A stretch of DNA of 20,051 nt. It comes from a virus. The notes under the pieces are model-generated. The model ran no database searches, was not told the DNA's origin, and worked only from the letters and a program-made list of their open reading frames with translations. Location: positions 1 through 20,051 of IMG/VR virus record IMGVR_UViG_3300036985_006080. The stretch is one strand, 5' to 3'. The position numbers were made by a program, and so were the translations under genes. Shown piece after piece: positions 3,496 through 13,807 of the stretch. The first letter of the stretch is position 1. Each line of letters starts with the position of its first letter.

Positions 3496-3570
3496 GGGTC
3501 GTTAGTTAAATGGATATAACAAGAAACTTCTAATTTTTAGTTGATGGTTCGATTCCATCACGACCTACCA
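3496..3570 (+). tRNA. tRNA-Arg (anticodon UCU), CCA encoded
   Basis: Full cloverleaf by eye. Acceptor stem GGGTCGT (3496-3502) pairs with ACGACCT (3560-3566), with one G-U pair at the end. D stem GTTA/TAAC, anticodon stem AGAAA/TTTTT with one G-U pair, and loop CTTCTAA with anticodon TCT at 3529-3531. The T arm is GATGG, TTCGATT, CCATC. Discriminator A and CCA are at 3567-3570. It reads AGA, a codon frequent in the AT-rich late genes at the right of the window but rare in the minus-strand small-gene block, so it may supplement the host for late translation. Confidence 0.95.
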
Positions 3571-3575
3571 AAAAC

Positions 3576-3647
3576 GCCTGTGAATTCACAGAGCCTTAAT
3601 AATGCCTGTGAATGAATAGCCTGTAAATAAATAAACCCCCAAATAAA
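3576..3647. repeat. Scattered copies of the GCCTGTGAAT repeat word
   Basis: Three copies follow the tRNA, at 3576, 3604 and 3619. The first lies in a perfect 14-bp palindrome CTGTGAATTCACAG (3578-3591). The third continues to CCAAATAAA at 3639-3647 and so resembles a full 28-bp unit of the array at 903-1069. They lie in the convergent region between the tRNA and the minus-strand genes. Confidence 0.6.
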
Positions 3648-3656
3648 GGGAGTATA

Positions 3657-3770
3657 CATAACCCACTGATAATCAAAGACTTATGAATCTCTGTAAGTCA
3701 CTGATAATGAAGGAGTTATGACGACGCGCCCCCCTCGCCCCCATAACTCGCTGATTTACAACGAGTTACG
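3657..3770. repeat. 79-bp element E1 with an extra arm
   Basis: Arm (3692-3720), GC-rich core (3721-3741) and arm (3742-3770), the standard 29-21-29 layout. An additional arm lies at 3657-3685, 6 bp to the left. The arms are variants of the palindrome TAACTCGTTGA/TCAACGAGTTA. The core is C-rich on the plus strand. This copy ends the leftmost minus-strand cassette and faces the tRNA convergently. No TTGACA/CTAACA module is attached. Confidence 0.85.
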
Positions 3771-3782
3771 AGGATTTAAACC

Positions 3783-4148
3783 CTACCACCAAGAATCATA
3801 GGCAACCTGAAGACCATTGTCCAGATGCCTCCTTGCTTCAGCGACAAAGCCAAGATCATCTAACAGATACCTATCATCTGATGCGGTAGAGCGACCGAAA
3901 AACAAACCGCTGGTTTCTGGCAGTTGAGAATCTAGCAGATCCTTTTCTAGTAGGTCGAGATCCTCAAGCGTCAACTCCAACGGAACGCAGTTGAAGTCTT
4001 GTGCGTCTTCATGCTTGTTAGGGCAACCCTTGGAACGCCAAAGATTTTCCATCCAACCATGCAGCGCGTTATGTTTACGCCAGTAGCTGAATTCATTCAC
4101 TTCCCCAGTCTTGGGGTCTCTGGTTTTTGCGTATTGATCTAGTCCCAT
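3783..4148 (-). CDS. Conserved phage protein of the MGLDQY type
   Basis: 121 residues. The pattern MGLDQYA at the start, YWRKHNALHGWMENL (22-36), LPETSGLFFG (about 76-85) and DDRYLLDDL (90-98) belongs to a small protein that I recall from many unrelated phages, where it has no established function. Members share the MGLD start, a YWRKxNxxHxW core and an LPxxSGxFFG segment. The ATG is 11 bp after the stop of the gene before it. It is the third and last gene of a three-gene operon ending at element E1. No membrane segment or signal peptide is present. Confidence 0.8.
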   Translation of the reverse strand: MGLDQYAKTRDPKTGEVNEFSYWRKHNALHGWMENLWRSKGCPNKHEDAQDFNCVPLELTLEDLDLLEKDLLDSQLPETSGLFFGRSTASDDRYLLDDLGFVAEARRHLDNGLQVAYDSWW

Positions 4149-4159
4149 ATTTTTGTTTG

Positions 4160-4537
4160 TTAGATTCTTGTTCCTTTGAATTCAGGGATCAAAGCGATCA
4201 CCTTGCCGCCAATGATAGTTACATACTTGGCCTTGTCAACAGGTTTGTCGTAGTAGTTAGAGATTACAAAGTTCGGTCCCTTGTAAGGATTGTAAGAAAT
4301 TTCGTCACGATAGACAAAAGACTTGGGGATGAAAGGGAAACGCTCGCCCAAGATGAACGCATGAACATTTTTACGCTTTTCTTTCAAGACTCTTTGCCGC
4401 CCTGCTTCGCTCACCTTGAACGTTGCATTGCGGAGAAAGATTTCTTTTGTGTATTCAACGACCTTCCAAGATCCGTTCACCTTTTCTTGAACAGAAAAGA
4501 GTTTCTTGTGGAAGTTGTAGTAGATTCTGACTTTCAT
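4160..4537 (-). CDS. Small conserved phage protein, function unknown
   Basis: 125 residues starting MKVRIYYNFHKKLFSVQ. I chose this ATG, 4 bp after the stop of the upstream gene, over one at 4600 that would overlap that gene. The order is a beta-rich N-terminal part (KLFSVQEKVNGSWKVVEYT), a basic segment AGRQRVLKEKRKNVHAFILG (about 49-68) and YNPYKGPNFVI. I recall the KNVHAF and YNPYK patterns from small proteins of diverse phages without a known role. The middle is basic enough to bind nucleic acid. Expressed from the promoter at 4860-4887. Confidence 0.75.
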   Translation of the reverse strand: MKVRIYYNFHKKLFSVQEKVNGSWKVVEYTKEIFLRNATFKVSEAGRQRVLKEKRKNVHAFILGERFPFIPKSFVYRDEISYNPYKGPNFVISNYYDKPVDKAKYVTIIGGKVIALIPEFKGTRI

Positions 4538-4541
4538 GTTT

Positions 4542-4853
4542 TTAGTTAGTAGTGAATGATTGACTCCATCCAGTTGGTTCGCAGCGATAGAGTCGCACAA
4601 CGTCGCCCTTCCTGCAACCCAATTTTACATAGTCTCCCACGGAAAGGGAAGGAATAGGAGTGACTTTGAACTGCTCATGTTCACGACCAGAACCGTGATT
4701 GCAAAGAGCGAAGATTCTTTCTAACAAGAAATCATCTGCCTCGTCTTCATCATGTTCAACTGATGCCATGAATGACACGCACCCGTTAGGGCGAGCGATG
4801 CGATACTCAGGAGTGGCGGCGTAAGTGGACTGGTATTCGAATAGCGTTTGCAT
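4542..4853 (-). CDS. Hypothetical protein, first gene of its operon
   Basis: 103 residues of unknown function. The centre is acidic (EHDEDEADDFL) and the C-terminal third, SLSVGDYVKLGCRKGDVVRLYRCEPTGW, looks like a small beta-barrel with the SVGD turn seen in KOW- or SH3-like folds. The ATG is 6 bp from a promoter -10 box with no room for a ribosome-binding site, so leaderless translation is likely. Two further genes follow with gaps of 4 and 11 bp. Confidence 0.7.
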   Translation of the reverse strand: MQTLFEYQSTYAATPEYRIARPNGCVSFMASVEHDEDEADDFLLERIFALCNHGSGREHEQFKVTPIPSLSVGDYVKLGCRKGDVVRLYRCEPTGWSQSFTTN

Positions 4854-4859
4854 GGGCGT

Positions 4860-4887
4860 ATGATACCACCCCAGCAGAGAACGTCAA
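4860..4887 (-). promoter_or_regulatory. Leaderless-type promoter
   Basis: On the minus strand: TTGACG, 16-bp spacer, TATCAT, 6 bp ACGCCC, then ATG at 4853. Predicted transcription start falls on the start codon. Confidence 0.7.
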
Positions 4888-4914
4888 CGCTTTTTTATTC
4901 TTTTTTATTCTTTT

Positions 4915-4993
4915 CGTAACTCATTGATTATAAGAGACTTGCGGCGGCGGGGCCGCCCCGCGCCCGTAACTCGTTGATAATCAACGACTTGCG
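4915..4993. repeat. 79-bp element E2
   Basis: Arms 4915-4943 and 4965-4993, both ending GACTTGCG instead of the usual TTATG or TTACG. The core 4944-4964 contains GGCGGGGCCGCC, which is itself self-complementary. This copy has no TTGACA/CTAACA module on its left; the promoter at 4860-4887 lies there instead. Confidence 0.85.
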
Positions 4994-4998
4994 TATCT

Positions 4999-5044
4999 GT
5001 TAGATTCTAACGCATTTCAACCACTCCCCTTTCGGGGAGTGGTT
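4999..5044 (-). terminator. Terminator hairpin plus GTTAGATTCTAAC palindrome
   Basis: An 11-bp perfect stem, AACCACTCCCC/GGGGAGTGGTT (5019-5044), with a GAAA loop on the minus strand, 8 bp after the stop of the gene at 5053. The T tract is poor. The 13-bp palindrome GTTAGATTCTAAC (4999-5011) lies between the hairpin and E2, as also beside E3 and E7. Confidence 0.75.
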
Positions 5045-5052
5045 GCATGATG

Positions 5053-5256
5053 TCACTCAAGGCTTTTTGTTAGATGAGCTTGCATCTTTACTGCTAGATC
5101 GGTTAGGTCATCGAGCGTATACCCTAACTGATCTCCGACAATTCCATCGTCAACGGGGAAGAGTCGAAGGGATTGAATCTTGCCGTCATCATGCGTGGCA
5201 TCGGCAAGGAAGAATCCCATCTCATCTGTCTCAATTATCTGGCGAAAAATTTTCAT
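5053..5256 (-). CDS. Small hypothetical protein
   Basis: 67 residues, not recognised. It runs MKIFRQIIETDEMGFFLADA, then SLRLFPVDDGIVGD, then a C-terminal helix with LDDLTDLAVKMQAHLT. It is acidic, probably soluble and has no cysteine. It lies downstream of the GP88-like gene with a 67-bp gap containing a perfect AT-rich inverted repeat (5300-5319), and is followed by a strong terminator hairpin. I see no clear promoter in the gap, so it is most likely the second gene of that operon. Confidence 0.6.
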   Translation of the reverse strand: MKIFRQIIETDEMGFFLADATHDDGKIQSLRLFPVDDGIVGDQLGYTLDDLTDLAVKMQAHLTKSLE

Positions 5257-5299
5257 CGTTTTCTGTGGGTCATCATTACTAACACAAGGAAGCAGAGGA

Positions 5300-5319
5300 C
5301 ATTTAAAATGAATTTTAAA
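5300..5319. repeat. AT-rich perfect inverted repeat between two genes
   Basis: ATTTAAAAT and ATTTTAAAT separated by GA, 5 bp after the stop of the GP88-like gene. It could act as an operator or a weak mRNA processing hairpin. The stem is all A/T, so terminator activity is doubtful. Confidence 0.55.
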
Positions 5320-5323
5320 TCAC

Positions 5324-6022
5324 TCATGCTGGTTCTAACACAAAGCCCGTTGCATCTTTTTTGGCGAGTCCTTTTTCTTTCAACCCGATAATCTTACCCG
5401 ATCCATCCAAGAAACGCAAGTCCGTTTCGTCGCCGTCGATCACTTCGTGGCCGTAGTATGTAGCAGGAAGAGACTTGCGGAAAACCATTGCGACGTTTCC
5501 GCCAGAGCGCAGGAAAGCCAAAGCAAGCGCACCGTTAGTTTCCGATCTTGAAAACGTGAGGTGATAATTTTTTGGCATTTCACCATTGACAAATTTAGTC
5601 ATGCGTTCTGGTGACTTGCAATAGTCATAGAATTGCACGTTAGGGAATGCTTCCATGACACTTTGCCCATTAAATTTAATTTTTTCCCACGGCAAATCCG
5701 AAGTGAGATTTAAACGAAAGCAAGGGATCATGTTTTTACGGGCAGCTGACTTGATAGATTTTGCAACCTCGGCCCAAAGTTCTGCTAGAAAACCCTGCTT
5801 ATCTTTAAAGAAGAAAAGCGTTTTTTTGATTCGTGCGCGTTGAACGGAAGTCATTGCACCGCGCCCCGCAGTGTTGAGACAAGCCCAACGGCAACCCGCA
5901 CTTGACGAGTCGCAGACATTGAAACCTGATAGAGAGGCTGGGGCCAAGTGAATGCCGTAGGTTGTGAAGCCTTTTTTTTCACCCTTGCGGGTCTTGCTAT
6001 TTCCAGAGTTGAGGAGTGACAT
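5324..6022 (-). CDS. GP88-like phage protein
   Basis: 232 residues. It matches what I remember of the Pfam 'Gene product 88' family and its relatives. Features are GIHLAPASLSGFNVC (23-37), a cysteine cluster C37, C44, C48 (NVCDSSSAGCRWACLNTAG), VQRARIKKTLFFF, PCFRLNLTSDLPWEKI (about 100-115), FPNVQFYDYCKSPERM and NYHLTFSRSE. The family occurs widely in phages and prophages; its function is unknown, though the cysteines suggest a metal or cluster site. The ATG at 6022 was preferred over TTG at 6028 because the promoter -10 box ends 6 bp before it, which makes a leaderless start. The first 20 residues are basic. Confidence 0.8.
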   Translation of the reverse strand: MSLLNSGNSKTRKGEKKGFTTYGIHLAPASLSGFNVCDSSSAGCRWACLNTAGRGAMTSVQRARIKKTLFFFKDKQGFLAELWAEVAKSIKSAARKNMIPCFRLNLTSDLPWEKIKFNGQSVMEAFPNVQFYDYCKSPERMTKFVNGEMPKNYHLTFSRSETNGALALAFLRSGGNVAMVFRKSLPATYYGHEVIDGDETDLRFLDGSGKIIGLKEKGLAKKDATGFVLEPA

Positions 6023-6028
6023 GGCCAA

Positions 6029-6056
6029 ATCTTAGCGTTTGAAGCGGACCTTGCAA
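6029..6056 (-). promoter_or_regulatory. Leaderless-type promoter of the GP88-like gene
   Basis: TTGCAA, 16-bp spacer, TAAGAT, 6 bp TTGGCC, then ATG at 6022. An A-rich AAAAAGAGC precedes the -35 box, like the AAAAAAGATC found before several other promoters here. Confidence 0.7.
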
Positions 6057-6090
6057 GCTCTTTTTAATGATTTTTATTTATTTATTTTGC

Positions 6091-6204
6091 TTGACAGCAG
6101 CGCCTAACATATTTCTAACAGTTGTCGTAAGTCGCTCATTATCAACGACTTATGGCTGCGCCCCCGCCCCGCGCCCGTAACTCGTTGATACTCAACGAGT
6201 TATG
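6091..6204. repeat. 79-bp element E3 with TTGACA/CTAACA module
   Basis: Plus-strand TTGACA at 6091, CTAACA at 6104 and CTAACA at 6115, then the element from 6126 with arms 6126-6154 and 6176-6204 and core 6155-6175. Spacings are 13, 11 and 11 bp. The core is C-rich on the plus strand, opposite to most copies. Confidence 0.85.
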
Positions 6205-6208
6205 ACTT

Positions 6209-6253
6209 ACGTTAGACTCTAACAAAAAGCCCCCATCCTTTCGGATAGGGGCT
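6209..6253 (-). terminator. Intrinsic terminator of the DUF932 gene
   Basis: On the minus strand an 11-bp stem, AGCCCCTATCC with GGATGGGGGCT and a GAAA loop (6228-6253), is followed by TTTTT. A GTTAGACTCTAAC palindrome follows at about 6210-6221. This is the clearest intrinsic terminator in the window. Confidence 0.9.
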
Positions 6254-6267
6254 GTTAGTGTTAGGTG

Positions 6268-7098
6268 TTACGCTCCCGCAACGATCAGCGTTTCCATTTC
6301 CTCGCCAGCATCGGCAAGATCAATGACGCTTTCAATTGTTGGGCGATGTCCCGCGATACGGTCAAAAATGCTTTGCGCGGTCATCGTGCGGAAAGGCAAC
6401 TTGGAAAGATCGCCACCCTTGAGATTTTCGGTCACAGAGTTGTAGAGCGTCCAGAGGGAACCACCTTTGAATTCTTCATGGCGCGGATTGCGGAATTCCT
6501 GCACGGCGTTGTAGATTTCACGCGCAGGGAATGCTTTGGAATCCACAAGGTCGATCAGAAGATCAGCGGCGCGGTCACGGGTGATTTCGGTTTGCTTGTA
6601 GCTTTCAATCCGATTGCCCATGTCATTCCAATGAGAGACGACACGCCCAACAGCATCGGCAAGGACACGGGGAAGGTCCGTCATGATGTTCGTGGTGTGA
6701 CGACGAGCCAGCTTGATATCCGAAGAGAAGCAAAGGTTTTCGCAAACCATCATGCGATTGCCAACGCAAATCGAAGCGGCAAAGGATTTGTCGTGAGCGT
6801 TCCGAAGACCTAACACGATTTGACGATCCGCGCCCGTGATGTCAAGACCAGAGAGGGCGAAGCCGCCGAAGTAGCGTTGACCACCGCGAGCAAGCGAATG
6901 CTCTTCTTGAGAGATGGAAAGACCAGCGCGGCCAATAGCTTCACGGGTAAGCTCGACAAGGCCGAAGTGAGGGATTGGCTGAAACGATTCGGTTTTTTCA
7001 GGGGTGAAAACGGAAGCGAGTTGTTCTGCGTTGACTTTGTTTTTTGCAATGATAAGTGACATATTGTTTTTCAGTTTGGGGTTGGGGTTGTGTGCCAT
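6268..7098 (-). CDS. DUF932 phage/plasmid-like protein
   Basis: 276 residues. The middle has the family's recognisable order: IVLGLRNAHDKSFAASICVG, NRMMVCENLCFSSDIKLARR (about 117-136) and HTTNIM. A long helical C-terminal half follows, with LWTLYNSVTENLKGG near the end. DUF932 (also called phage/plasmid-like protein TIGR03299) is common on plasmids and phages and its biochemical role is not established. The ATG at 7098 (MAHNPNPKLKN) is preferred because a TATTCT box lies 16 bp upstream; ATG 7062 (MSLIIAKN) is an alternative, and the upstream 7143 start lies within the promoter. It is a single-gene cassette closed by a strong terminator and E3. Confidence 0.85.
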   Translation of the reverse strand: MAHNPNPKLKNNMSLIIAKNKVNAEQLASVFTPEKTESFQPIPHFGLVELTREAIGRAGLSISQEEHSLARGGQRYFGGFALSGLDITGADRQIVLGLRNAHDKSFAASICVGNRMMVCENLCFSSDIKLARRHTTNIMTDLPRVLADAVGRVVSHWNDMGNRIESYKQTEITRDRAADLLIDLVDSKAFPAREIYNAVQEFRNPRHEEFKGGSLWTLYNSVTENLKGGDLSKLPFRTMTAQSIFDRIAGHRPTIESVIDLADAGEEMETLIVAGA

Positions 7099-7114
7099 CA
7101 GCGGCAACAGGGAT

Positions 7115-7142
7115 AGAATATCACACCCAGCGGACTTGTCCA
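7115..7142 (-). promoter_or_regulatory. Promoter of the DUF932 gene
   Basis: TGGACA, 16-bp spacer and TATTCT, with the ATG 16 bp downstream, giving a leader of about 10 nt. The -35 box is weaker than its neighbours. Confidence 0.5.
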
Positions 7143-7196
7143 CATCTTTTTCATTGTTTTTCGTTTTTTATTTTTTGGGGTATTTTGATTTAGTTC

Positions 7197-7310
7197 TTGA
7201 CAAGCCAGCCCTAACAGATGTTCGTTAGATACATAAGTCGTTGATTATCAACGACTTATGGCGGCGGGGCGGGGCCGCGCCCGTAACTCGTTGATTCTTA
7301 GCGAGTTAGG
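7197..7310. repeat. 79-bp element E4 with partial module
   Basis: Arms 7232-7260 and 7282-7310, with core 7261-7281 G-rich on the plus strand. TTGACA is at 7197 and one CTAACA at 7211 (14 bp instead of 13); the second CTAACA is replaced by sequence containing GTTAGA. The left arm is a nearly perfect palindrome around TTGATTATCAA. Confidence 0.85.
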
Positions 7311-7338
7311 CAAGGGGAGAACCGAAACTCCCCTTGCC
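7309..7338 (-). terminator. Hairpin at the end of the 7358 gene
   Basis: An 11-bp perfect stem, GGCAAGGGGAG/CTCCCCTTGCC, with an 8-nt loop, sharing its outermost two bases with the right arm of E4. There is no T tract on either strand, so RNA 3'-end protection or termination helped by E4 are both possible. Confidence 0.6.
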
Positions 7339-7357
7339 CTTACCCACACCATGTCAA

Positions 7358-7519
7358 CTAGAAATCTTTTGTTTTTTGGCTTTCAATGTAAGCATCAGCC
7401 ATTTCAGCCATGCGAGTCAATTCGATAACCGCATCTTCGTGTGTGTTAGGGTTTTGGATCAGTCTCAGCAAGATTGGGAGAACGTTAGACCAAGTAGGAG
7501 TGCAATCAATTGTTTTCAT
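7358..7519 (-). CDS. Small conserved phage protein with CTPTW motif
   Basis: 53 residues, starting MKTIDCTPTWSNVLPILLRL and ending in a helix with AVIELTRMAEMADAYI. The order CTPTW, LP, LL, then ELxxMAxxAD is one I recall from very small proteins in many phages and prophages; no function is known. The stop is TAG at 7358-7360 and the start lies 9 bp from a TAACAT box. It is the last gene of the long cassette that starts at 8911 and has its own promoter, whose -35 box overlaps the stop codon of the metalloprotease gene. Confidence 0.75.
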   Translation of the reverse strand: MKTIDCTPTWSNVLPILLRLIQNPNTHEDAVIELTRMAEMADAYIESQKTKDF

Positions 7520-7528
7520 AACGGGATT

Positions 7529-7556
7529 ATGTTAGCGTTTTTTGTGTCAGTGTCAA
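7529..7556 (-). promoter_or_regulatory. Promoter overlapping the upstream stop codon
   Basis: TTGACA, 16-bp spacer and TAACAT, 9 bp before the ATG at 7519. The TGA stop of the upstream gene lies within TTGACA. Confidence 0.6.
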
Positions 7557-7879
7557 GCGGGAATGAAGCGTCTTGCTGGAATCTTTAATTGAGCGCAATA
7601 CTTTTTCCAATTCTTACCGTGGAAATCATTTCGTCCGTTTACTTTCAATGTGCCGCCCTTTTCCTTTGCATCTAACGCATGGGCCATTTCGTGAAGCAGA
7701 ACCTCGCGGAACAAAGTAAAACTCTTTAAGCAAGTAACAGACAAAACAATTTCATTCTTCTGGACGAAGTAGTAGCCCAAAGTCCTAGACATTTGCTTGA
7801 AAGAATGCTTTACGTTAGAGATTCCGTGCTGCTTAAGAGTGGCGCGAATGTAAAGATCAACTTCTTGTGTAGTTAACAT
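7553..7879 (-). CDS. SprT-like zinc metalloprotease domain protein
   Basis: 108 residues. The zinc-binding helix LLHEMAHALD (61-70) gives HExxH at H63-H67, and a third ligand is likely H87 in NDFHGKNW. The order and spacing, including FHGxxW, match SprT/SPRTN-like domains, which in cellular proteins cleave DNA-protein crosslinks. No C-terminal zinc ribbon or DNA-binding extension follows, so this is a minimal protease core. Phages often carry such small SprT-like proteins of unknown substrate. Its ATG shares one base with the stop of the preceding gene (TAATG), showing translational coupling. Confidence 0.85.
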   Translation of the reverse strand: MLTTQEVDLYIRATLKQHGISNVKHSFKQMSRTLGYYFVQKNEIVLSVTCLKSFTLFREVLLHEMAHALDAKEKGGTLKVNGRNDFHGKNWKKYCAQLKIPARRFIPA

Positions 7880-8067
7880 TAAAGCTCTTTCATGTAAGAA
7901 GGTTTCAATTCTTCAGCTCTCATTTCAAAAAGCCAATTCAGTGTTTCAATATCGCGCAAAGCATCGAAAGGATCGCGCTCTTTAAGTTCTTTGATTCTTT
8001 GTTTCAACCAATAGCTTGAGCAAGGATCGAGTTCGATAGATTCGGCGGTGCGTTCAAATGATTTCAT
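7879..8067 (-). CDS. Small helical hypothetical protein
   Basis: 62 residues, not recognised. It is charged and helical throughout (WLKQRIKELKERDPFDALRDIETLNWLFEMRAEEL). It is coupled to the SprT-like gene by a TAATG overlap, so the two may be made in fixed proportion. A TTGACT box lies 28-33 bp upstream of the ATG, with only a poor -10 match (AATCCT) at 17 bp, so an independent promoter is uncertain. Confidence 0.6.
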   Translation of the reverse strand: MKSFERTAESIELDPCSSYWLKQRIKELKERDPFDALRDIETLNWLFEMRAEELKPSYMKEL

Positions 8068-8103
8068 GTGAAGAAGGATTGATTATTTTGACGAGGTAGT
8101 CAA

Positions 8104-8175
8104 CTACTTTCTGCGGCGGATCATTACTAGAGCAAGGGTGACTCCCACAACGATTGCCCATGCGATAAGATACAT
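8104..8175 (-). CDS. 23-residue single-pass membrane peptide
   Basis: The frame reads MYLIAWAIVVGVTLALVMIRRRK, that is about 18 hydrophobic residues followed by RRRK, a textbook positive-inside anchor. The stop is TAG. It starts 30 bp after the stop of the gene at 8206, and the small gap before the next gene is filled by its frame. There is no Shine-Dalgarno. Such miniproteins are easily missed. The hydrophobic composition, basic tail and position in a cassette argue for reality, but at 23 codons chance cannot be excluded. Confidence 0.5.
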   Translation of the reverse strand: MYLIAWAIVVGVTLALVMIRRRK

Positions 8176-8205
8176 GATTTTTATGGATTGTTAGAACGAG
8201 ATGTT

Positions 8206-8526
8206 TCATTTGTTTTCTGATAGAAAGATTAGGAAGTCTTCAGCCAAACCATTGATTAATTCTTCCACAAAGAACAAAGGGTCATCCATTGGGTGAAGGT
8301 CTTTGGTTAGAGACTCCCAAGGTTTGACTAGATCTCTATCGGAAGATTCCTCATCAATCATTGCCAAGCAAAGGCGTTCGGCAGACCAATCTTGTGGCCA
8401 AGATGAAAGGAAGTGGCTTGCAGCCTTAAGATAGGCGGCAGATTCTAATGGATTACGAAGATCCAATCCAGCGGAGAAGTCTGTGTTCACTTTGATAATG
8501 GCGGGTGGTGGTGGTAGTGTATTCAT
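8206..8526 (-). CDS. Hypothetical acidic protein
   Basis: 106 residues, unknown. A proline-rich start (MNTLPPPPAIIKV) is followed by helices including NPLESAAYLKAASHFLSSWP and an acidic C-terminal region (FFVEELINGLAEDFLIFLSENK). It has no cysteines other than one in RLCLAM and no catalytic motif that I can see. The ATG is 8 bp from a CACACT box, so the leader is about 2 nt. Its promoter contains the terminator-like hairpin of the upstream gene within the spacer. Confidence 0.7.
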   Translation of the reverse strand: MNTLPPPPAIIKVNTDFSAGLDLRNPLESAAYLKAASHFLSSWPQDWSAERLCLAMIDEESSDRDLVKPWESLTKDLHPMDDPLFFVEELINGLAEDFLIFLSENK

Positions 8527-8534
8527 ACGGGGAA

Positions 8535-8563
8535 AGTGTGGGGGCTTTCGCCCCCTTTGTCAA
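8535..8563 (-). promoter_or_regulatory. Promoter with a hairpin inside its spacer
   Basis: TTGACA, 17-bp spacer and CACACT, 8 bp before the ATG at 8526. The stem GGGGGC/GCCCCC with a GAAA loop (8540-8555 on the plus strand) fills nearly all the spacer and overlaps the first base of the -10 box. It also lies directly after the stop of the gene at 8566, so one segment may serve as RNA 3' end and promoter. Confidence 0.65.
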
Positions 8564-8565
8564 TT

Positions 8566-8748
8566 TTATTCTTCGTCAAGGTCAATGCCGTCGCAATCAA
8601 CCCAAAAAGATCCTTCAATGTAAGAGCTTTCAATGGGCAGGTTGGTATCGTCATCTTCAGCAATAGAAATCGCGCCTTCCAATGATTCAGCTTCGATTTC
8701 CAAGTGTCCATAGACTTCCCAAACGCAGGGAATTTTATATATTTTCAT
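8566..8748 (-). CDS. Small conserved phage protein with WEVYG motif
   Basis: 60 residues: MKIYKIPCVWEVYGHLEIEA, then SLEGAISIAED, LPIESSYIEGSFWVDCDGID. I recall this plan (xVxWEVYGxxEIEA, slEEA helix, then YxEGSFxVD) from short proteins in many phages; function unknown. The fold is probably a beta-alpha-beta with an acidic surface. It lies 10 bp after the stop of the gene at 8759 and is probably read from the promoter at 8921-8949. A second promoter-like pair (TTGACA and TATGTT) lies inside that upstream gene. Confidence 0.75.
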   Translation of the reverse strand: MKIYKIPCVWEVYGHLEIEAESLEGAISIAEDDDTNLPIESSYIEGSFWVDCDGIDLDEE

Positions 8749-8758
8749 ATGTGGAGAG

Positions 8759-8911
8759 TTAGCGTGTTTGATAGATGTGAGCTTTCGCTTGGCGAAACAT
8801 AGCCTCCTCGGTTTGCTTTGTCAACCAGCTTTTTTGTTCAAAGATTGATGCGCCGTATTTGGGGGCAGGAAGTGGGTTGAGATAGTAGTAGATTTTCTTT
8901 AGTAGTTTCAT
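8759..8911 (-). CDS. Small basic hypothetical protein
   Basis: 50 residues starting MKLLKKIYYYLNPLPAPKYG and ending AKAHIYQTR. Basic and aromatic, with no membrane segment and no recognised family. Support comes from a promoter of the block's standard type, with its -10 box 9 bp before the ATG, from the ordered gap of 10 bp to the next gene, and from the absence of another frame in the interval. It is the first gene of the longest cassette (8911 to 7358). Confidence 0.65.
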   Translation of the reverse strand: MKLLKKIYYYLNPLPAPKYGASIFEQKSWLTKQTEEAMFRQAKAHIYQTR

Positions 8912-8920
8912 GGCGAGGAG

Positions 8921-8949
8921 AGAATGACAGAGAACAATGACCCTTGCAA
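8921..8949 (-). promoter_or_regulatory. Cassette promoter with A-rich upstream sequence
   Basis: TTGCAA, 17-bp spacer and CATTCT, 9 bp before the ATG. AAAAAAGATC lies directly before the -35 box and recurs before the promoters at 11006, 11507 and 13808. Confidence 0.7.
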
Positions 8950-8993
8950 GATCTTTTTTGGATATTTATTTCTACTGTCCTGTGATTTTTTTC

Positions 8994-9173
8994 TTGACAA
9001 ATAGCCTGTAATTCATCTGCAATTAAATAGGCTGTAAATAGATAAGTCCTTAATACTGAGTCAGTAACAGAAATCTAACAGAAGGGGCCGTTTTCATAAG
9101 TGACTGATTATCAACGACTTATGGCGGCAGAGCGGGGCCGCGCCCGTAACTCGTTGAAAACCAACGACTTATG
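8994..9173. repeat. 79-bp element E5 with interrupted module
   Basis: Arms 9095-9123 and 9145-9173, with core 9124-9144. TTGACA is at 8994 but the only CTAACA lies at 9075, so about 60 bp extra separate them. The extra segment includes TAGCCTGTAATT and an inverted partner ending AGGCT, followed by CTGTAAAT, that is, words of the CTGTGAAT repeat family. Confidence 0.8.
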
Positions 9174-9193
9174 ACTTCTGTTAGATACCAGCC

Positions 9194-9221
9194 CAAAAGA
9201 ACCCCACCCTTTCGGGTGGGG
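9194..9221 (-). terminator. Intrinsic terminator
   Basis: Stem CCCCACCC/GGGTGGGG with a GAAA loop on the minus strand, followed by TTCTTTT. It lies 10 bp after the stop of the gene at 9232. Confidence 0.8.
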
Positions 9222-9231
9222 CTGTTAGTTG

Positions 9232-9696
9232 TTAGGCTTTCACAAACTCGGCTTTGATTTCGCCGCACTTGAATGTTAGAACCCCTTCCTTGTGAGCGCA
9301 AGCCCATTGACCGCCCTTCTTTGTTAGAATGTTAGAGGCGTTGCGGTTGACGAACGAGATATAACCCAATCCCTCGACTCGGTTAGTTCCGCCAGCCAAG
9401 AGGCGACGATATTTATCTTTGCCATTGATGGTCCTAACGGAACCGTCTTTTTTGGTAAAGGTGACGGAAAAGAATTTTCCTTTGGTTTCGGCAATCAGTT
9501 GGTCTAGTGTTTTGTTCACGGTTTGTTTTGGTTTATGGTTCAGGAGAGAATCGTTTTCGTCTATCAGCTTTTTGCAATAGGCTCGGTATCTAGCAGCATT
9601 CCGCTTTGCAACTCGGATTTCATCTTGTATAAGAAAAAAGATGGCAGAGAACAAAAGCAACGCGACGATTGACATAATGATGGTTGTGGTATTCAT
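9232..9696 (-). CDS. Membrane-anchored protein with SH3-like barrel domain
   Basis: 154 residues. Residues 5-23 (TIIMSIVALLLFSAIFFLI) form an N-terminal membrane anchor. A charged helix (about 25-55) leads to a domain starting LIAETKGKFFSVTFTKKDG, continuing SVRTINGKDKYRRLL and ending WACAHKEGVLTFKCG. The GKxFSVTFxKKDGSxRTxNG pattern resembles phage domains annotated as SH3 beta-barrel fold proteins, whose role is unknown. The anchor suggests the domain is held at the inner membrane. It starts 13 bp after the stop of the gene at 9710, after a run of eight A residues. A single terminator ends the operon. Confidence 0.75.
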   Translation of the reverse strand: MNTTTIIMSIVALLLFSAIFFLIQDEIRVAKRNAARYRAYCKKLIDENDSLLNHKPKQTVNKTLDQLIAETKGKFFSVTFTKKDGSVRTINGKDKYRRLLAGGTNRVEGLGYISFVNRNASNILTKKGGQWACAHKEGVLTFKCGEIKAEFVKA

Positions 9697-9709
9697 TTTT
9701 TTTTCTGGT

Positions 9710-9883
9710 TTATTTGATGAGAGTAACGCGACCCTTTGCGCGAGCGTAGCGGATTGAATTCGCAGCGTCTAACCGATCCATTTGAATCGCGCCACTTGGA
9801 GTATTGATGAAGCAAGCGGTGCGCGAGGTAGCAAGGCGAACTTCGCGGAAGGAGTTTGAGAGGGAGTAGACTTTGGTTTGCAT
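9710..9883 (-). CDS. Small basic hypothetical protein
   Basis: 57 residues from MQTKVYSLSNSFREVRLATS to ARAKGRVTLIK. Arginine-rich, one cysteine, no recognised family; the pattern suggests a beta N-terminal part followed by a short helix (MDRLDAANSIRYARAKG). It has a promoter of standard type with 9 bp (TTCCCTGCC) between -10 and ATG, identical to that of the gene at 9929, so the two starts look like duplicates. It lies in tandem with the membrane-anchored gene. Confidence 0.65.
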   Translation of the reverse strand: MQTKVYSLSNSFREVRLATSRTACFINTPSGAIQMDRLDAANSIRYARAKGRVTLIK

Positions 9884-9892
9884 GGCAGGGAA

Positions 9893-9921
9893 AGAGTAAG
9901 GAATTTTTAGAGGTTAGGCAA
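9893..9921 (-). promoter_or_regulatory. Near-leaderless promoter, twin of the one at 10133
   Basis: TTGCCT, 17-bp spacer, TACTCT, TTCCCTGCC, ATG at 9883. The -10 box and the following 9 bp are identical to those of the promoter at 10133-10161. Confidence 0.75.
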
Positions 9922-9928
9922 GAACTAT

Positions 9929-10123
9929 TTACAGGAAAAGACCGTTAAGTTTTTTCGTTGCTGCGTATTGGGTTTTAGAAACAAACTCATAACGGATGTC
10001 GGAATCTGTCGGGTGAGTAGCGACGACCAAAAAGTCAACGTTGTATTTTCCCACTCTTTTCGTGATTTCAAAATTGAATTTGCGGTTTTGGGTGATTCCT
10101 TTTTTGATTAATGTGTTGATCAT
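9929..10123 (-). CDS. Small hypothetical protein
   Basis: 64 residues starting MINTLIKKGITQNRKFNFEI and including KYNVDFLVVATHPTDSDIRY and KTQYAATKKLNGLFL. Basic, probably beta-rich in the centre, unknown function. I chose ATG 10123 over a longer frame from 10219 because a well-formed promoter lies immediately before it and the longer frame would run through that promoter. First gene of its cassette, followed by two more genes before the terminator at 9194-9221. Confidence 0.65.
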   Translation of the reverse strand: MINTLIKKGITQNRKFNFEITKRVGKYNVDFLVVATHPTDSDIRYEFVSKTQYAATKKLNGLFL

Positions 10124-10132
10124 GGCAGGGAA

Positions 10133-10161
10133 AGAGTAACCCACCGCCGACCTTTCGACAA
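10133..10161 (-). promoter_or_regulatory. Near-leaderless cassette promoter
   Basis: TTGTCG, 17-bp spacer, TACTCT, TTCCCTGCC, ATG at 10123, with an A-rich AAAGAAAAACC before the -35 box. Confidence 0.75.
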
Positions 10162-10206
10162 GGTTTTTCTTTATTAAAATGATTTTTATTTTTCTTATTA
10201 TTTTGC

Positions 10207-10320
10207 TTGACAGGGGCATCTAACAACAGTCTAACAACCTGCATAACTCACTGATTATCAACGACTTATGGCTGCGCCCCCGCCCCCCGCCCGTAACTCG
10301 TTGATATTCAACGAGTTACG
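10207..10320. repeat. 79-bp element E6 with complete module
   Basis: TTGACA 10207, CTAACA 10220, CTAACA 10231, then arms 10242-10270 and 10292-10320 around core 10271-10291. Spacings 13, 11 and 11 bp. The right arm is a perfect palindrome of CGTAACTCGTTGA and its complement around 3 bp. The core is C-rich on the plus strand. There is no hairpin between E6 and the stop of the gene at 10325. Confidence 0.9.
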
Positions 10321-10324
10321 AATG

Positions 10325-10597
10325 TCAATCAATATCCCACAGGCTCATGCCTTTTTCGTTAGCTAACTTTTCGTAATGGTCAGAGGAGGCATCCGCTGGG
10401 TCAGCATGATTCCAGTATCCAAACCACTCATCTTCTTGACCGTCAAGCTTTAAACGAGCTTTTGTGTCAAAAATTTTGCGGTTGCCTTCGCAGTAGGAGC
10501 AGCTCCCATGATTGCGGCAAGAGCAATCAAATGCTTTTGATCCGCGATAGGGCTTGCGTTTTTCTTTTTTGTGGATGATTGCTTTTTCTAGACTCAT
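10325..10597 (-). CDS. Small zinc-binding protein
   Basis: 90 residues. A basic N-terminal part (KKEKRKPYRGSK) is followed by a cysteine cluster C25-x-C27-x5-C33-x2-C36 (CSCRNHGSCSYCEG), which resembles one half of a DnaJ-type or rubredoxin-like zinc knuckle. The acidic C-terminal part contains LDGQEDEWFGYWNHADP. Probably a single-zinc protein binding nucleic acid or protein. The stop lies 5 bp from E6 with no separate terminator. It has its own promoter, whose -35 box starts just after the upstream stop. Confidence 0.7.
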   Translation of the reverse strand: MSLEKAIIHKKEKRKPYRGSKAFDCSCRNHGSCSYCEGNRKIFDTKARLKLDGQEDEWFGYWNHADPADASSDHYEKLANEKGMSLWDID

Positions 10598-10607
10598 GAT
10601 AAGAAAG

Positions 10608-10635
10608 TGTATAGCGGGGGGGGACGCCTATGCAA
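10608..10635 (-). promoter_or_regulatory. Promoter of the zinc-binding protein gene
   Basis: TTGCAT, 16-bp spacer containing a run of eight C, TATACA, then 10 bp to the ATG at 10597. Confidence 0.6.
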
Positions 10636-10637
10636 GC

Positions 10638-10844
10638 TCAAAGGTCACAGAAGTAGTGGATTTGCTTGCCGTCGCGCCACATGGTGAAACCCTCAACCCC
10701 GATACTCTCACACCCGCCAGAGGCGGCAGAGGCATCGTAGGCGCGGCAAACAGCCAGACGATAAGCCTCCTTGGGCGAGGAGTGGATGGCAACCCCGACA
10801 CGCACGGCGCGGGGAACGACAAGGTAGTATCTAATGGTATACAT
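10638..10844 (-). CDS. Small hypothetical protein
   Basis: 68 residues starting MYTIRYYLVVPRAVRVGVAI and ending MWRDGKQIHYFCDL. It has a beta-like start, a helix (SPKEAYRLAVCRAYDASAAS) and a beta-like end, compatible with a small alpha/beta domain. Not recognised. The ATG is 2 bp after the stop of the gene at 10847, so the two are coupled. An overlapping 64-codon frame at 10628-10822 is rejected as a shadow. Confidence 0.65.
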   Translation of the reverse strand: MYTIRYYLVVPRAVRVGVAIHSSPKEAYRLAVCRAYDASAASGGCESIGVEGFTMWRDGKQIHYFCDL

Positions 10845-10846
10845 AA

Positions 10847-10999
10847 TCAGTGGGCGTAGGAACGAGGACCATCCTCATAGTAAAAATCTTCAGGGCGCGG
10901 ATCGGGCGTGGACGCGATAGCCTCGTCGGCCATCGACTCCATGACGGAAATGTATTCTTCAAACTCAGTGGAATCGGCTGGGAAGGGGAGCAAGCTCAT
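10847..10999 (-). CDS. Small acidic protein, paralogue of the 11249 gene
   Basis: 50 residues starting MSLLPFPADSTEFEEYISVM. Aligned with the next cassette's first gene (MSSLPFPADSAEFEEYTSVM), 16 of the first 20 residues are identical, and MADEA and PDP also match. Acidic and without cysteine. The leaderless-type promoter is also alike (TATTCT with CTGGGC, against TACTCT with CTGCCC). Unknown function; probably a recent duplication of a start-of-cassette gene, here with a shorter C-terminal half. Confidence 0.75.
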   Translation of the reverse strand: MSLLPFPADSTEFEEYISVMESMADEAIASTPDPRPEDFYYEDGPRSYAH

Positions 11000-11005
11000 G
11001 CCCAG

Positions 11006-11034
11006 AGAATAGGTGGAATCTCACCCAATGACAA
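11006..11034 (-). promoter_or_regulatory. Leaderless-type cassette promoter
   Basis: AAAAAAGATC, TTGTCA, 17-bp spacer, TATTCT, 6 bp CTGGGC, ATG at 10999. Confidence 0.8.
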
Positions 11035-11078
11035 GATCTTTTTTCATCTTTTATTTATTTTTTTTCTTACTTTATTGC

Positions 11079-11191
11079 TTGACACGGCGATCTAACACGT
11101 TTCTAACGTTTTCATAAGTGACTGATTATCAATGACTTACAGCGGCGGGGCGGGGCCGCGCTCGTAACTCGTTAAGTATCAACGACTTACA
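11079..11191. repeat. 79-bp element E7 with complete module
   Basis: TTGACA 11079, CTAACA 11092, CTAACG 11103, arms 11113-11141 and 11163-11191 around the G-rich core 11142-11162. The step from the second CTAAC to the arm is 10 bp here. A GTTAGATTCTAAC palindrome follows at about 11198-11210. Confidence 0.85.
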
Positions 11192-11211
11192 ACTTCGGTT
11201 AGATTCTAACT

Positions 11212-11238
11212 AAAAAGGAACCCACCCTTTCGGGTGGG
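11212..11238 (-). terminator. Intrinsic terminator
   Basis: Stem CCCACCC/GGGTGGG with a GAAA loop on the minus strand, followed by TTCCTTTTTA. It lies 10 bp after the stop of the gene at 11249. Confidence 0.85.
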
Positions 11239-11248
11239 CTGTTAGGGT

Positions 11249-11500
11249 TCAGAAGTCGCCGCAGCACCCTTCCATGCCGTATTCTGACTGGTCCTCCCAG
11301 TAGGAATCGAGGTAACGGTCTTCAGGCTCCTCGCGGTCTTCGTGGCACTCTTCCCAATCCTTGTCAAGATGGGAATCGTCGGGGGCATCGTCAGGCTCGG
11401 GATCGGGCGCGGACGCATTGGCCTCGTCGGCCATCGCGTTCATGACGCTGGTGTATTCTTCGAACTCGGCGGAATCAGCAGGGAATGGGAGCGAACTCAT
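11249..11500 (-). CDS. Small, very acidic protein, paralogue of the 10847 gene
   Basis: 83 residues. The N-terminal MSSLPFPADSAEFEEYTSVM is shared with the 50-residue protein at 10847. The rest is extremely acidic (DPEPDDAPDDSHLDKDWEEC, REEPEDRYLDSYWEDQSEYG) and ends CCGDF. Its charge would allow DNA mimicry or binding to a basic host protein, which is speculation. Single-gene cassette with a leaderless-type promoter and its own terminator. Confidence 0.75.
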   Translation of the reverse strand: MSSLPFPADSAEFEEYTSVMNAMADEANASAPDPEPDDAPDDSHLDKDWEECHEDREEPEDRYLDSYWEDQSEYGMEGCCGDF

Positions 11501-11506
11501 GGGCAG

Positions 11507-11535
11507 AGAGTAACCAGAAAACCGACCAATGACAA
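11507..11535 (-). promoter_or_regulatory. Leaderless-type cassette promoter
   Basis: AAAAAAGATC, TTGTCA, 17-bp spacer, TACTCT, 6 bp CTGCCC, ATG at 11500. Confidence 0.8.
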
Positions 11536-11579
11536 GATCTTTTTTGTGTTTTCTTTGATTATTTTTTTTGAGAAAAGAC

Positions 11580-11693
11580 TTGACAAGACGAACTAACAGC
11601 AGCCTAACAGTTGTCGTAACTCATTCATTATCAATGACTTATGGCGGCGGGGCGGGGCTGCGCCCGTAACTCGTTGATATTCAACGACTTATG
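11580..11693. repeat. 79-bp element E8 with complete module
   Basis: TTGACA 11580, CTAACA 11593, CTAACA 11604, arms 11615-11643 and 11665-11693 around the G-rich core 11644-11664. Spacings 13, 11 and 11 bp. The sequence before TTGACA (TTGAGAAAAGAC) is shared with the site at 13882. Confidence 0.9.
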
Positions 11694-11808
11694 AGATTGA
11701 ATTTTGCGCTTGACATTTGCCCCGCCTCCCAACCACGGGAGGCGAGGACTTACCATGTCCACCAGTTAGAAAGTTAGAGCCTTTTCTTGCCATGCTCAGG
11801 GCGTTCCG
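11694..11808 (-). terminator. 3' region with hairpin and a 26-bp repeat
   Basis: Stem CGCCTCCC/GGGAGGCG with a 6-nt loop at 11723-11744, no T tract. A 26-bp sequence at 11777-11802 recurs with two mismatches at 12781-12806, just after the stop of the gene at 12815. Both copies contain GCCATGCTCAGGGC on the plus strand. A 34-codon frame (11689-11793, MARKGSNFLTGG...) lies here but is not called. Confidence 0.5.
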
Positions 11809-12069
11809 TTAGACTACCAAGTCGATTCCTGCAAGGTGCAAGTTGCGATACTTGGCAACGCCAGAGTCATCAATGTCCTTTGCGAAGACAGTGACAAAAC
11901 GCTTTCCAGTCTTGGCGGCAAAGTCAACATTTTCGACCGATTCAATCTTGAAGACGCGAACGCCGCTCTTAGTCACCTTGGACTTTTCAGCGAAGTATCT
12001 AACGGTCTTGCCAACGAGTTCGGAAGCGATTTTTGCGGATGGGGTGTTATATTCTAGGGTCATGGTCAT
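11809..12069 (-). CDS. Small hypothetical protein
   Basis: 86 residues starting MTMTLEYNTPSAKIASELVG, with VRYFAEKSKVTKSGVRVFKI and KRFVTVFAKDIDDSGVAKYR. Alternating hydrophobic and charged residues suggest a small beta-barrel. Not recognised. A second ATG lies two codons in (12063). A near-consensus promoter lies 16 bp upstream, so the leader is about 10 nt, longer than for most genes in the block. Last gene before E8. Confidence 0.7.
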   Translation of the reverse strand: MTMTLEYNTPSAKIASELVGKTVRYFAEKSKVTKSGVRVFKIESVENVDFAAKTGKRFVTVFAKDIDDSGVAKYRNLHLAGIDLVV

Positions 12070-12085
12070 TTTTGGTTACGAGGTG

Positions 12086-12114
12086 AGTATAAAGGGTTTT
12101 TGGGGGTTGGTCAA
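12086..12114 (-). promoter_or_regulatory. Promoter of the 11809 gene
   Basis: TTGACC, 17-bp spacer, TATACT, then 16 bp to the ATG at 12069. Confidence 0.75.
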
Positions 12115-12141
12115 CTTATTTTTGAGTATTCGCGGCGATTT

Positions 12142-12360
12142 TTACCAGATTGTGGACCGCACTTCTGTTTCTCGTTCAAGGTGGATCTTTCTAACAAAAT
12201 CCAATGCTTCTATCGCGGCTTCTGCGTCCCCTTCTTGAACTTCATCATAATCTAACACTTTTTGGATGTCTTCGTCCGAATAACATTCGACAATGAAATC
12301 CCAACCTCCATCGTTGTAGTGTTCAATCGCGTGGTTTCTAACTGCTTCGGTATTTTTCAT
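12142..12360 (-). CDS. Small acidic hypothetical protein
   Basis: 72 residues: MKNTEAVRNHAIEHYNDGGW, IVECYSDEDIQKVLDYDEVQ, then a helix with AAIEALDFVRKIHLERETEV. Acidic and helical; I do not recognise it. The gap of 44 bp to the stop of the gene at 12405 has CTTGCCTAACCCC but no well-spaced -10 box, so it is probably read from the promoter at 12558-12586. Confidence 0.65.
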   Translation of the reverse strand: MKNTEAVRNHAIEHYNDGGWDFIVECYSDEDIQKVLDYDEVQEGDAEAAIEALDFVRKIHLERETEVRSTIW

Positions 12361-12404
12361 GGTGTATTGATTTTAGGGGTTAGGCAAGAGGTTTTTTGTT
12401 TATT

Positions 12405-12551
12405 TCAAAGAAGTTCTAGATCATACATGGAAACTTCCATTTCCTCGCCATCTTTAAAGCAGACCCAAGCAGTCGTGCCGAAGTGTTCAAGGATCATGAC
12501 CGATTGGCCGTTGAAGATTGCGAAGTCGTGTAATGAGGTGTTGTTTGTCAT
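12405..12551 (-). CDS. Small hypothetical protein with beta-barrel look
   Basis: 48 residues from MTNNTSLHDFAIFNGQSVMI to MEVSMYDLELL, with GTTAWVCFKDGEEMEV in the middle. The alternation suggests a small SH3-like barrel. ATG 12551 is chosen over the longer frame from 12659 because the promoter with a TATACT box ends 6 bp before it. First gene of its cassette. Unknown function. Confidence 0.7.
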   Translation of the reverse strand: MTNNTSLHDFAIFNGQSVMILEHFGTTAWVCFKDGEEMEVSMYDLELL

Positions 12552-12557
12552 GCCCAA

Positions 12558-12586
12558 AGTATAGGGGAAACCGACCCGCTCCACAA
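12558..12586 (-). promoter_or_regulatory. Leaderless-type cassette promoter
   Basis: TTGTGG, 17-bp spacer, TATACT, 6 bp TTGGGC, ATG at 12551. The TTGGGCATG end is identical to that of the gene at 13631. Confidence 0.8.
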
Positions 12587-12650
12587 GAACTTTCTGCATA
12601 AAAAACGATTTATTTTCGCTTTTTATTTCACATCTTTCTTCGCTTTTCTC

Positions 12651-12776
12651 TTGACGCATTCATCTAACAGCCCTCTAACACATGCTGTAGTCGCCTATGT
12701 AACTCGCTTATTATCAACGACTTATGGCGGCGGCGCGGGGCCGCGCCCGTAACTCGTTGAGTATCAACGACTTATG
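12651..12776. repeat. 79-bp element E9 with complete module and arm fragment
   Basis: TTGACG 12651, CTAACA 12664, CTAACA 12675, then a partial arm-like piece (GTAGTCGCC, about 12687-12695) before the full arm 12698-12726, core 12727-12747 and arm 12748-12776. The extra 12 bp place the arm 47 instead of 35 bp from the start of TTGACG. Confidence 0.85.
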
Positions 12777-12814
12777 AAGGGAGCCTTTTATCGCCATGCT
12801 CAGGGCTTGATCTG

Positions 12815-13084
12815 TTAGGCGGGGAAGCCCTCTTCTTCTAGCAGTTGCGCCGCAATGTCTTGCGCTACGTCTAGCAGTTCAGACATAGGGGTCGAATCGT
12901 TAGCCTCATCTATCAGCTCTTCCAACTCATCCAACCCAGCACACAGGTTGAATGTATCTGCTAGATCAGAGAGGCACACGGCCCCACCTGATAGATCTTT
13001 CACTGCCCTATTGACTAGGACGCGAGCCTTGTGGCGTGGCGCATCAATTGGATTCTTAAGGAACTCTTGGATGTTAGATATCAT
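12815..13084 (-). CDS. Hypothetical acidic helical protein
   Basis: 89 residues starting MISNIQEFLKNPIDAPRHKA and ending QDIAAQLLEEEGFPA. Mostly helical, with a basic patch (RHKARVLVNRAVKD) and an acidic second half (LDELEELIDEANDS). ATG 13084 overlaps the stop of the small membrane protein gene by 4 bp (ATGA), a coupling arrangement that also decides the start; the longer frame from 13159 would overlap that gene fully. Last gene of its cassette, followed by a 26-bp repeat shared with 11777-11802 and by E9. Confidence 0.7.
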   Translation of the reverse strand: MISNIQEFLKNPIDAPRHKARVLVNRAVKDLSGGAVCLSDLADTFNLCAGLDELEELIDEANDSTPMSELLDVAQDIAAQLLEEEGFPA

Positions 13085-13209
13085 GGTAGGTAGTATGGGA
13101 AGAAGGGTTGAATGACAGAGTGGATACCATAGGCGACGAAGGCCCAAAAGGTAGCACACGCTACGATGGCGAAAAGGATTCTTGTTAGGTTGAAGAGGAG
13201 GATTTTCAT
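13081..13209 (-). CDS. 42-residue membrane protein
   Basis: The frame reads MKILLFNLTRILFAIVACAT, then FWAFVAYGIHSVIQ and FFPYYLP. Residues 3-27 form one hydrophobic segment after a short basic start. It is coupled on both sides: 1 bp after the stop of the upstream 42-residue gene and overlapping the downstream ATG by 4 bp. These junctions make a real gene likely despite its size. Function unknown; small inner-membrane phage proteins may act on host membrane enzymes. Confidence 0.65.
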   Translation of the reverse strand: MKILLFNLTRILFAIVACATFWAFVAYGIHSVIQPFFPYYLP

Positions 13210-13210
13210 G

Positions 13211-13339
13211 TTAGTAGGTTGTGCTGTTAGTAAGCATGAAGTAGAGAGTTGTTAGGGCATACCCCGCGATGACGGGGCAGACGATGAAGGTTATGAAGTA
13301 TACGCAGTAGCAGGTAATTTGTTCTGTTAGTTCTTTCAT
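13211..13339 (-). CDS. 42-residue membrane protein, tandem neighbour
   Basis: The frame reads MKELTEQITCYCVYFITFIV, then CPVIAGYALTTLYFML, ending TNSTTY. It has one long or two short hydrophobic segments, with three cysteines in or near the first. Exactly as long as the next gene (42 residues), but I see no clear sequence similarity between them. Starts 18 bp after the stop of the gene at 13358, behind two CTAACA words (CCTAACATCCTAACACC), with no Shine-Dalgarno. Confidence 0.6.
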   Translation of the reverse strand: MKELTEQITCYCVYFITFIVCPVIAGYALTTLYFMLTNSTTY

Positions 13340-13357
13340 GGTGTTAGGATGTTAGGA

Positions 13358-13603: not shown

Positions 13604-13609
13604 GGCGAA

Positions 13610-13638
13610 ATTATAGGGTAGGGGTGAGGATTAGGCAA
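13610..13638 (-). promoter_or_regulatory. Leaderless-type promoter overlapping upstream gene end
   Basis: TTGCCT, 17-bp spacer, TATAAT, 6 bp TTCGCC, ATG at 13603. Confidence 0.8.
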
Positions 13639-13801: not shown

Positions 13802-13807
13802 GCCCAA

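Follow-up and report, generated by a model that had tools for sequence, protein, structure and literature searches.

The window analysed here, a 20,051-base virus fragment from IMG/VR (record IMGVR_UViG_3300036985_006080), carries an array of small minus-strand early genes (3783-13819), with plus-strand clamp-loader and glycosylase genes to its left and plus-strand late genes for a structural protein, PhoH and a sigma-like factor to its right. Within this array lie nine copies of a bipartite intergenic element, named E1 to E9 (Table 1). Each is exactly 79 base pairs (bp) long and consists of a 29-bp arm, a 21-bp GC-rich core and a second 29-bp arm, so that the distance from arm start to arm start is 50 bp in all nine. 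In each arm, two inverted copies of a half-site close to YRTAASTCGYTGA surround 3 bp. A first-pass annotation of the window had listed nine such copies of invariant length with half-sites around 3 bp, each after the last gene of a minus-strand cassette; all nine were re-found at the same starts, with this structure and in this position. The lone arm beside E1 comes in addition to them. Recent identical duplication, which the annotation had set against its own proposal, is not what is seen, since the copies are not identical, their cores differ in sequence and some cores are inverted. No U-tract terminator was found between E6 and the stop of the minus-strand gene upstream of it, and no arm in the divergent junction between early and late genes (13820-14108).

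Table 1. Coordinates of the elements and of two neighbouring genes in the window
Feature	Position	Strand	Remarks
Lone tenth arm	3657-3685		unpaired; adjoins E1; 4 mismatches to consensus
E1	3692-3770		convergent junction of last minus-strand gene (stop 3783) with plus-strand tRNA-Arg/glycosylase genes
E2	4915-4993		core half of G-rich type, half of C-rich type
GP88 protein gene (PF17338)	5324-6022	-	
E3	6126-6204		between DUF932 gene (3' end 6268) and GP88 gene; core inverted relative to E4, E5 and E7 to E9
DUF932 protein gene (PF06067)	6268-7062	-	used as unbiased bait for relatives
E4	7232-7310		
E5	9095-9173		
E6	10242-10320		starts 4 bp past stop of upstream minus-strand gene; core inverted as in E3
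E7	11113-11191		
E8	11615-11693		
E9	12698-12776		nearest element to divergent early/late junction; first early operon upstream of it

Distribution among related phages

Viral contigs were scanned with one arm half, which yielded 93 stretches, most of them carrying arrays of paired arms. A protein-sequence search with DUF932, which avoids the bias of an arm-based scan, added 79 new loci. Paired arms are present in 67 of these (430 pairs in total) and in none of the reversed-sequence controls of the same loci, and in 57 of the 79 an arm pair lies at most 400 bp from the 3' end of the DUF932 gene. The paired-arm elements thus occur far beyond chance. At the site of E3, between the DUF932 and GP88 genes, more than 30 diverged phages have an element. 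Arm spacing is near-constant per contig and specific to the lineage; 50 bp is the commonest value, and other lineages have 48 (L067, L075, L104), 52 (L016, L058, L064), 51 (L027, L070), 58 (L048) or 41 bp (L095). The fixed length claimed for the element therefore holds within the window phage and not between lineages.

The elements mark a widespread clade of uncultured phages, in which they stand at the end of almost every early operon. One member, the 148-kb contig G017, encodes a DNA polymerase, a ribonucleotide reductase and rIIA; its terminase stays below 30% identity to all isolate terminases in INPHARED, so that the clade has no closely related isolate. The end of G017 repeats an internal stretch (17580-23400 and 141909-147748) and it has two DUF932 and two GP88 genes, so this contig may be misassembled or a chimera. 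The libraries searched agree with the earlier statement that no named element has this plan: in Rfam only the tRNA-Arg was matched and no family reached its gathering score over the elements, DNA similarity searches of INPHARED and PLSDB gave no significant match to the element, and the literature, searched for the sequence and for elements of this kind, yielded nothing relevant besides the stoperators discussed below.

In the species genomes of GTDB, arms number at most a few per genome, and 50-bp arm pairs occur in only two contigs (L130 215-290, L147 24-1720) of one Verrucomicrobiales bin. Both may represent phage DNA that was placed in the bin of its host, and hence be a clue to the host; L130 also encodes a GP88 relative. 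Single arms are found in Fibrobacter, Akkermansia, Bacteroidota and other genomes. In five Fibrobacter loci (L112, L118, L128, L137, L145) a conserved gene with no family assigned, about 1303 codons long, has a single arm 29-62 bp ahead of it. The genes next to bacterial single arms form no coherent regulon and so point to no binder. Matches in plasmids, upstream of mobilisation genes, and in phages were weak (E-values 0.2 to 8).

Concerted exchange of element types

The first-pass annotation had named related phages with the same operons and no elements as evidence against its proposal. Such relatives do occur, yet the DUF932 loci without the arms described above (type I) carry other fixed-length repeated elements at their operon ends, usually one type per genome. 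Type II is AACTTAC-N31-GTAAGTT (45 bp in 8/8 copies), a hairpin followed by U residues, and may derive from type I, since a decayed type I arm still adjoins it. Type III is TTTACGC-N18-GCGTAAA (32 bp in 14/14 copies), type IV consists of CTAACAG clusters around a core, type V of two TAGG...ACCTA dyads (48 bp in 8/8 copies of L264) and type VI of CCAGGGGYRCCCCTGG (8 and 13 copies); a further type is present in L236/L238. Types were counted by regular expression, and the reversed controls gave 0 matches.

Close relatives can differ in type. Most early genes of G036 (type I) and G035 (type II) are 88-100% identical. At two sites inspected in this pair, the flanks are near-identical on both sides while the element itself is swapped. 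The DUF932 proteins of G037 (type I, 58 bp) and G045 (type III) are 99.6% identical. Between L034 and L095, flanks are 80-98% identical (mostly above 90%), the cores are new and the spacing changes from 50 to 41 bp. Orthologous sites with both flanks alignable had changed in 2/2, 2/2 and 1/1 cases in three type-switch pairs, a small number per pair as many flanks are not alignable on both sides, and in all cases examined in L034/L095. Elements of like architecture and unrelated sequence are thus exchanged wholesale between close relatives. As far as the literature and library searches show, such a concerted exchange of unrelated codes is undescribed, and it suggests a recognition system not yet known. 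Replacing some ten dispersed regulatory sites together, with the genes between them near-unchanged, is hard by ordinary mutation. It implies that the sites are strongly matched to a single trans-acting factor or that they are converted by an active process. The phenomenon bears on how phages separate their transcription units and on possible interference between co-infecting relatives, and the near-identical pairs with different elements (G036/G035, G037/G045, L034/L095) offer a natural experiment for finding the factor.

Arms and cores

Covariation was measured on 550 distinct arms, whose halves change independently of each other. At position 6, the only one that varies freely, C and G are used without constraint; symmetry there is seen in 49.1% of arms (expected, 51.5%), and about half of them are left unpaired. 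Pairing between arm A and arm B at this position is below expectation (0.364 versus 0.477 and 0.498 versus 0.592), a deficit to which common ancestry could contribute. The compensatory changes that the annotation had proposed to look for were not found across the arm halves. Since selection for pairing would give the reverse, the arms look like dyad-symmetric sites for a putative binding protein and not like RNA hairpins. Two readings had been offered by the annotation, a protein bridging two palindromes and an RNA with three hairpins; spacing fixed per lineage and the lack of pairing covariation favour the former, and the arms unpaired at position 6 speak against the latter.

The cores are 71-88% GC in the main spacing classes and show little self-complementarity outside the 58-bp class; their orientation is sometimes flipped between copies or orthologues. 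RNA folding of four window elements gave z-scores of -3.9 to -7.4. No U-tract follows type I arms. Type III barely folds (-3.4 kcal/mol, z -0.7), and type VI gave z -1.0.

Placement at operon ends

The order of clamp-loader side, early array and late genes is common to all contigs that reach the borders. In 11/11 contigs reaching the left border, where gene strands were judged from open reading frames and homology, the last element lies at the convergent junction, past the last early gene and facing the ends of the opposing genes. In nearly all contigs at least one early gene precedes the first element at the divergent early/late junction. Because the convergent end is occupied and nearly all divergent junctions are empty, the elements go with operon 3' ends. 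That every operon is punctuated by one, as had been said of the window, is supported there and extends to the relatives.

Ordinary U-tract terminators are separate features that lie upstream of some elements. One occurs within 200 nucleotides (nt) before the element in 60 of 278 oriented elements (opposite-strand control, 3), a low number that leaves room for another stop signal at operon ends. A leaderless sigma70-like promoter follows the element in 113 of the 278, against 25-32 in controls. The distance from element to -35 box ranges from 25 to 182 bp (10th-90th percentile) without helical phasing, a pattern more in keeping with insulation than with activation close to the promoter.

Search for a possible cognate factor

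Thirteen large contigs were searched for proteins that might read or move the elements. Tyrosine integrase (PF00589) was detected in 0/13 and in 14/14 control genomes, and serine recombinase (PF00239) and ParB (PF02195) each in 0/13, again with positive controls. An HTH_3 repressor was found in 0/13 (controls 14/14), a result that covers this one helix-turn-helix (HTH) family, other HTH families not having been searched, and contigs that may be incomplete. In comparisons of G035 with G036 and of G045 with G037, and in presence tables, no gene tracks the element type. A small diverged gene beside GP88 (G035 41339-41710) was considered as a co-switching gene and rejected, since the copy in the type I phage L084 is 89% identical to the type II one.

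Proposed mechanism and alternative explanations

Our tentative reading, to which we give somewhat less than an even chance, is that each element pairs two dimer sites and blocks or insulates transcription where an operon ends, and that the code is replaced in concert. Each element would comprise two dyad sites for a dimeric DNA-binding protein, held at a set distance around a GC-rich core. Two bound dimers, probably touching each other, would form an orientation-independent block or insulator that stops the RNA polymerase of one early operon from entering the next promoter or, at the end of the array, the converging genes. The recognition code (arm, core and spacing) would be common to all copies in a phage and be replaced as a set, presumably when the cognate factor changes. 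That every copy bears one code implies a single reader acting in trans. That the set is replaced as a whole implies in turn a change of this reader, or else active conversion of the copies. The DNA comparisons establish the distribution, the geometry, the lack of pairing covariation, the operon-end placement and the concerted replacement; the binding of a protein, its dimeric state, the transcription block and the cause of the switching are inferences. We give slightly less credence to a broader version, in which the early operon ends of a given phage carry one of at least six unrelated elements of fixed geometry, recognised by its cognate factor. Near-identical phages would swap entire sets because selection favours difference, as with immunity types, all this in phages that lack a detectable classical repressor.

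Several observations weigh against the proposed block. The spacings of 41-58 bp lack the common helical phase expected for a rigid protein bridge. Since some operons end in a strong intrinsic terminator as well as an element, termination does not always require the latter. In one clade (L029, L030, L020, L082, L100, L103) an element lies in an apparent divergent junction, where it may follow a short unannotated transcript. A candidate binder was not found: an 86-amino-acid protein family (window 11809-12069) is absent from the type I phages G017, G023 and G024, and a small AT-hook protein (window 1193-1432), for which Pfam and PHROG gave no match with a meaningful E-value, occurs irrespective of element type.

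The elements might alternatively be operators or enhancer-like sites, at which a bound upstream regulator switches the downstream early promoter on or off. Their position upstream of leaderless promoters at co-directional junctions fits this, as do the stretches around them (TGTCAAG, CTAACA pairs), which are conserved in the window too. We consider it unlikely, because no sense promoter follows the last element at the convergent junction in any of the 11 contigs, the first operon has no upstream element in nearly all contigs and the distance to the -35 box is so variable and unphased. Folded RNA or folded single-stranded DNA, with 3'-end hairpins that stabilise or terminate the mRNA, would explain the operon-end placement, the good folding of the arms in the four window elements and the hairpin and U residues of type II. 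The absence of covariation within arms, the arm-arm complementarity below expectation at position 6, the missing U-tract in type I, the weak folding z-scores of types III and VI and the lack of an Rfam match make it rather improbable.

An equally doubtful account sees the elements as recombination sites that turn operons into exchangeable cassettes, like the attC sites of integrons, or as homing-like nuclease sites through which foreign copies are converted. There is one site per operon 3' end, homogeneous within a genome, cores invert between orthologues, and short tracts are replaced with their flanks kept, as break repair would do. Against this, neither a tyrosine integrase nor a serine recombinase was found in the large contigs (other nuclease families not having been searched), and neighbouring genes stay syntenic while the elements change. 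That the elements match a host factor, the types reflecting different hosts, appears very unlikely. The negative searches for a phage HTH_3 repressor and ParB are in its favour; it is contradicted by the scarcity of arms in GTDB genomes, where the only 50-bp pairs are in the two contigs of a single bin, both probably phage DNA, and by the difference in type between phages with 99.6% identical DUF932 proteins.

Comparison with known systems

The closest known elements in behaviour are the stoperators of Cluster A mycobacteriophages such as L5 and Bxb1. These 13-bp asymmetric sites, each bound by a monomer, follow the direction of transcription and lose activity when inverted; 20-30 of them are spread across the genomes of these temperate phages, where they are proposed to stop elongation, and Bxb1 and L5 have distinct consensus sequences and cognate repressors (PMC6550527, PMC9283540). 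Both kinds of element occur in many copies in short intergenic spaces, with a consensus common within a phage and different between phages. As stoperators are 13-bp, asymmetric and oriented, the present elements are not stoperators: they are bipartite, dyad-symmetric, about 80 bp long, fixed in spacing and confined to the early array, and with paired 29-bp dyads as arms and cores in both orientations they have no single orientation. Moreover, stoperator motifs drift with relatedness whereas the element types flip abruptly between close relatives. The search for a repressor of the HTH_3 type, the one HTH family looked for, was negative in the large contigs, which may be incomplete.

The integron attC site resembles the elements in lying once at the 3' end of each transcription unit, in having two imperfect arms and a variable centre and in being similar within one array. 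The arms of attC carry RYYYAAC/GTTRRRY boxes. Such boxes are lacking from the arms described here, arm-arm pairing is not conserved and no tyrosine integrase was found in the 13 contigs. Intrinsic terminators and repeats of the repetitive extragenic palindrome and bacterial interspersed mosaic element (REP/BIME) type are likewise palindromes at operon 3' ends; unlike intrinsic terminators, type I has neither a U-tract nor compensatory change, whereas type II does have a hairpin and U residues. The start-associated sequences of Cluster K mycobacteriophages, also repeated short intergenic phage elements, reportedly stand at gene starts, unlike the elements at operon ends. Centromeres of the parS type and sites for serine invertases or resolvases differ in that ParB and serine recombinase, respectively, were not found in the large contigs. 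On present evidence, the elements are a new variant of dispersed phage control sites.

Further sequence features of the window and its relatives

In the clade with an element near the divergent early/late junction, this element (L029 2983-3061, L103 3163-3240) adjoins conserved non-coding sequence in which a CCCTCAGmGAAyTATAG-like motif occurs twice and which might be a small RNA. In the window, the minus-strand genes starting at 6022, 10999, 11500, 12552 and 13801 have a TTGTCA-N17-TATTCT promoter some 6 nt ahead of their ATG, and the early mRNAs therefore look leaderless.

The motif CTAAC (mRNA sense; GTTAG on the plus strand) is strongly enriched in the early array, with 47 occurrences in window 3500-13950 against about 13 expected. 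The excess is found both in coding and in non-coding DNA, the motif is nearly absent outside the array and the same excess is seen in the relatives L034, L095, L094 and L106. In L203, CTAACAG clusters form the operon-end element itself. At about 10170-10260 of L034, a sequence like the 3' end of a transfer-messenger RNA, with CTAACAG/CTGTTAGA in its stem, adjoins an element. Tandem repeats of 33-35 bp with CCTGTGAAT...GCCAAATAAT occur at window positions 899-1034, 3580-3640 and 9000-9050, and related CTGTAAATA repeats are found elsewhere. In further members of the clade, 15-16 bp TATTTG arrays are present (L199 8978-9071, L264 8228-8299).

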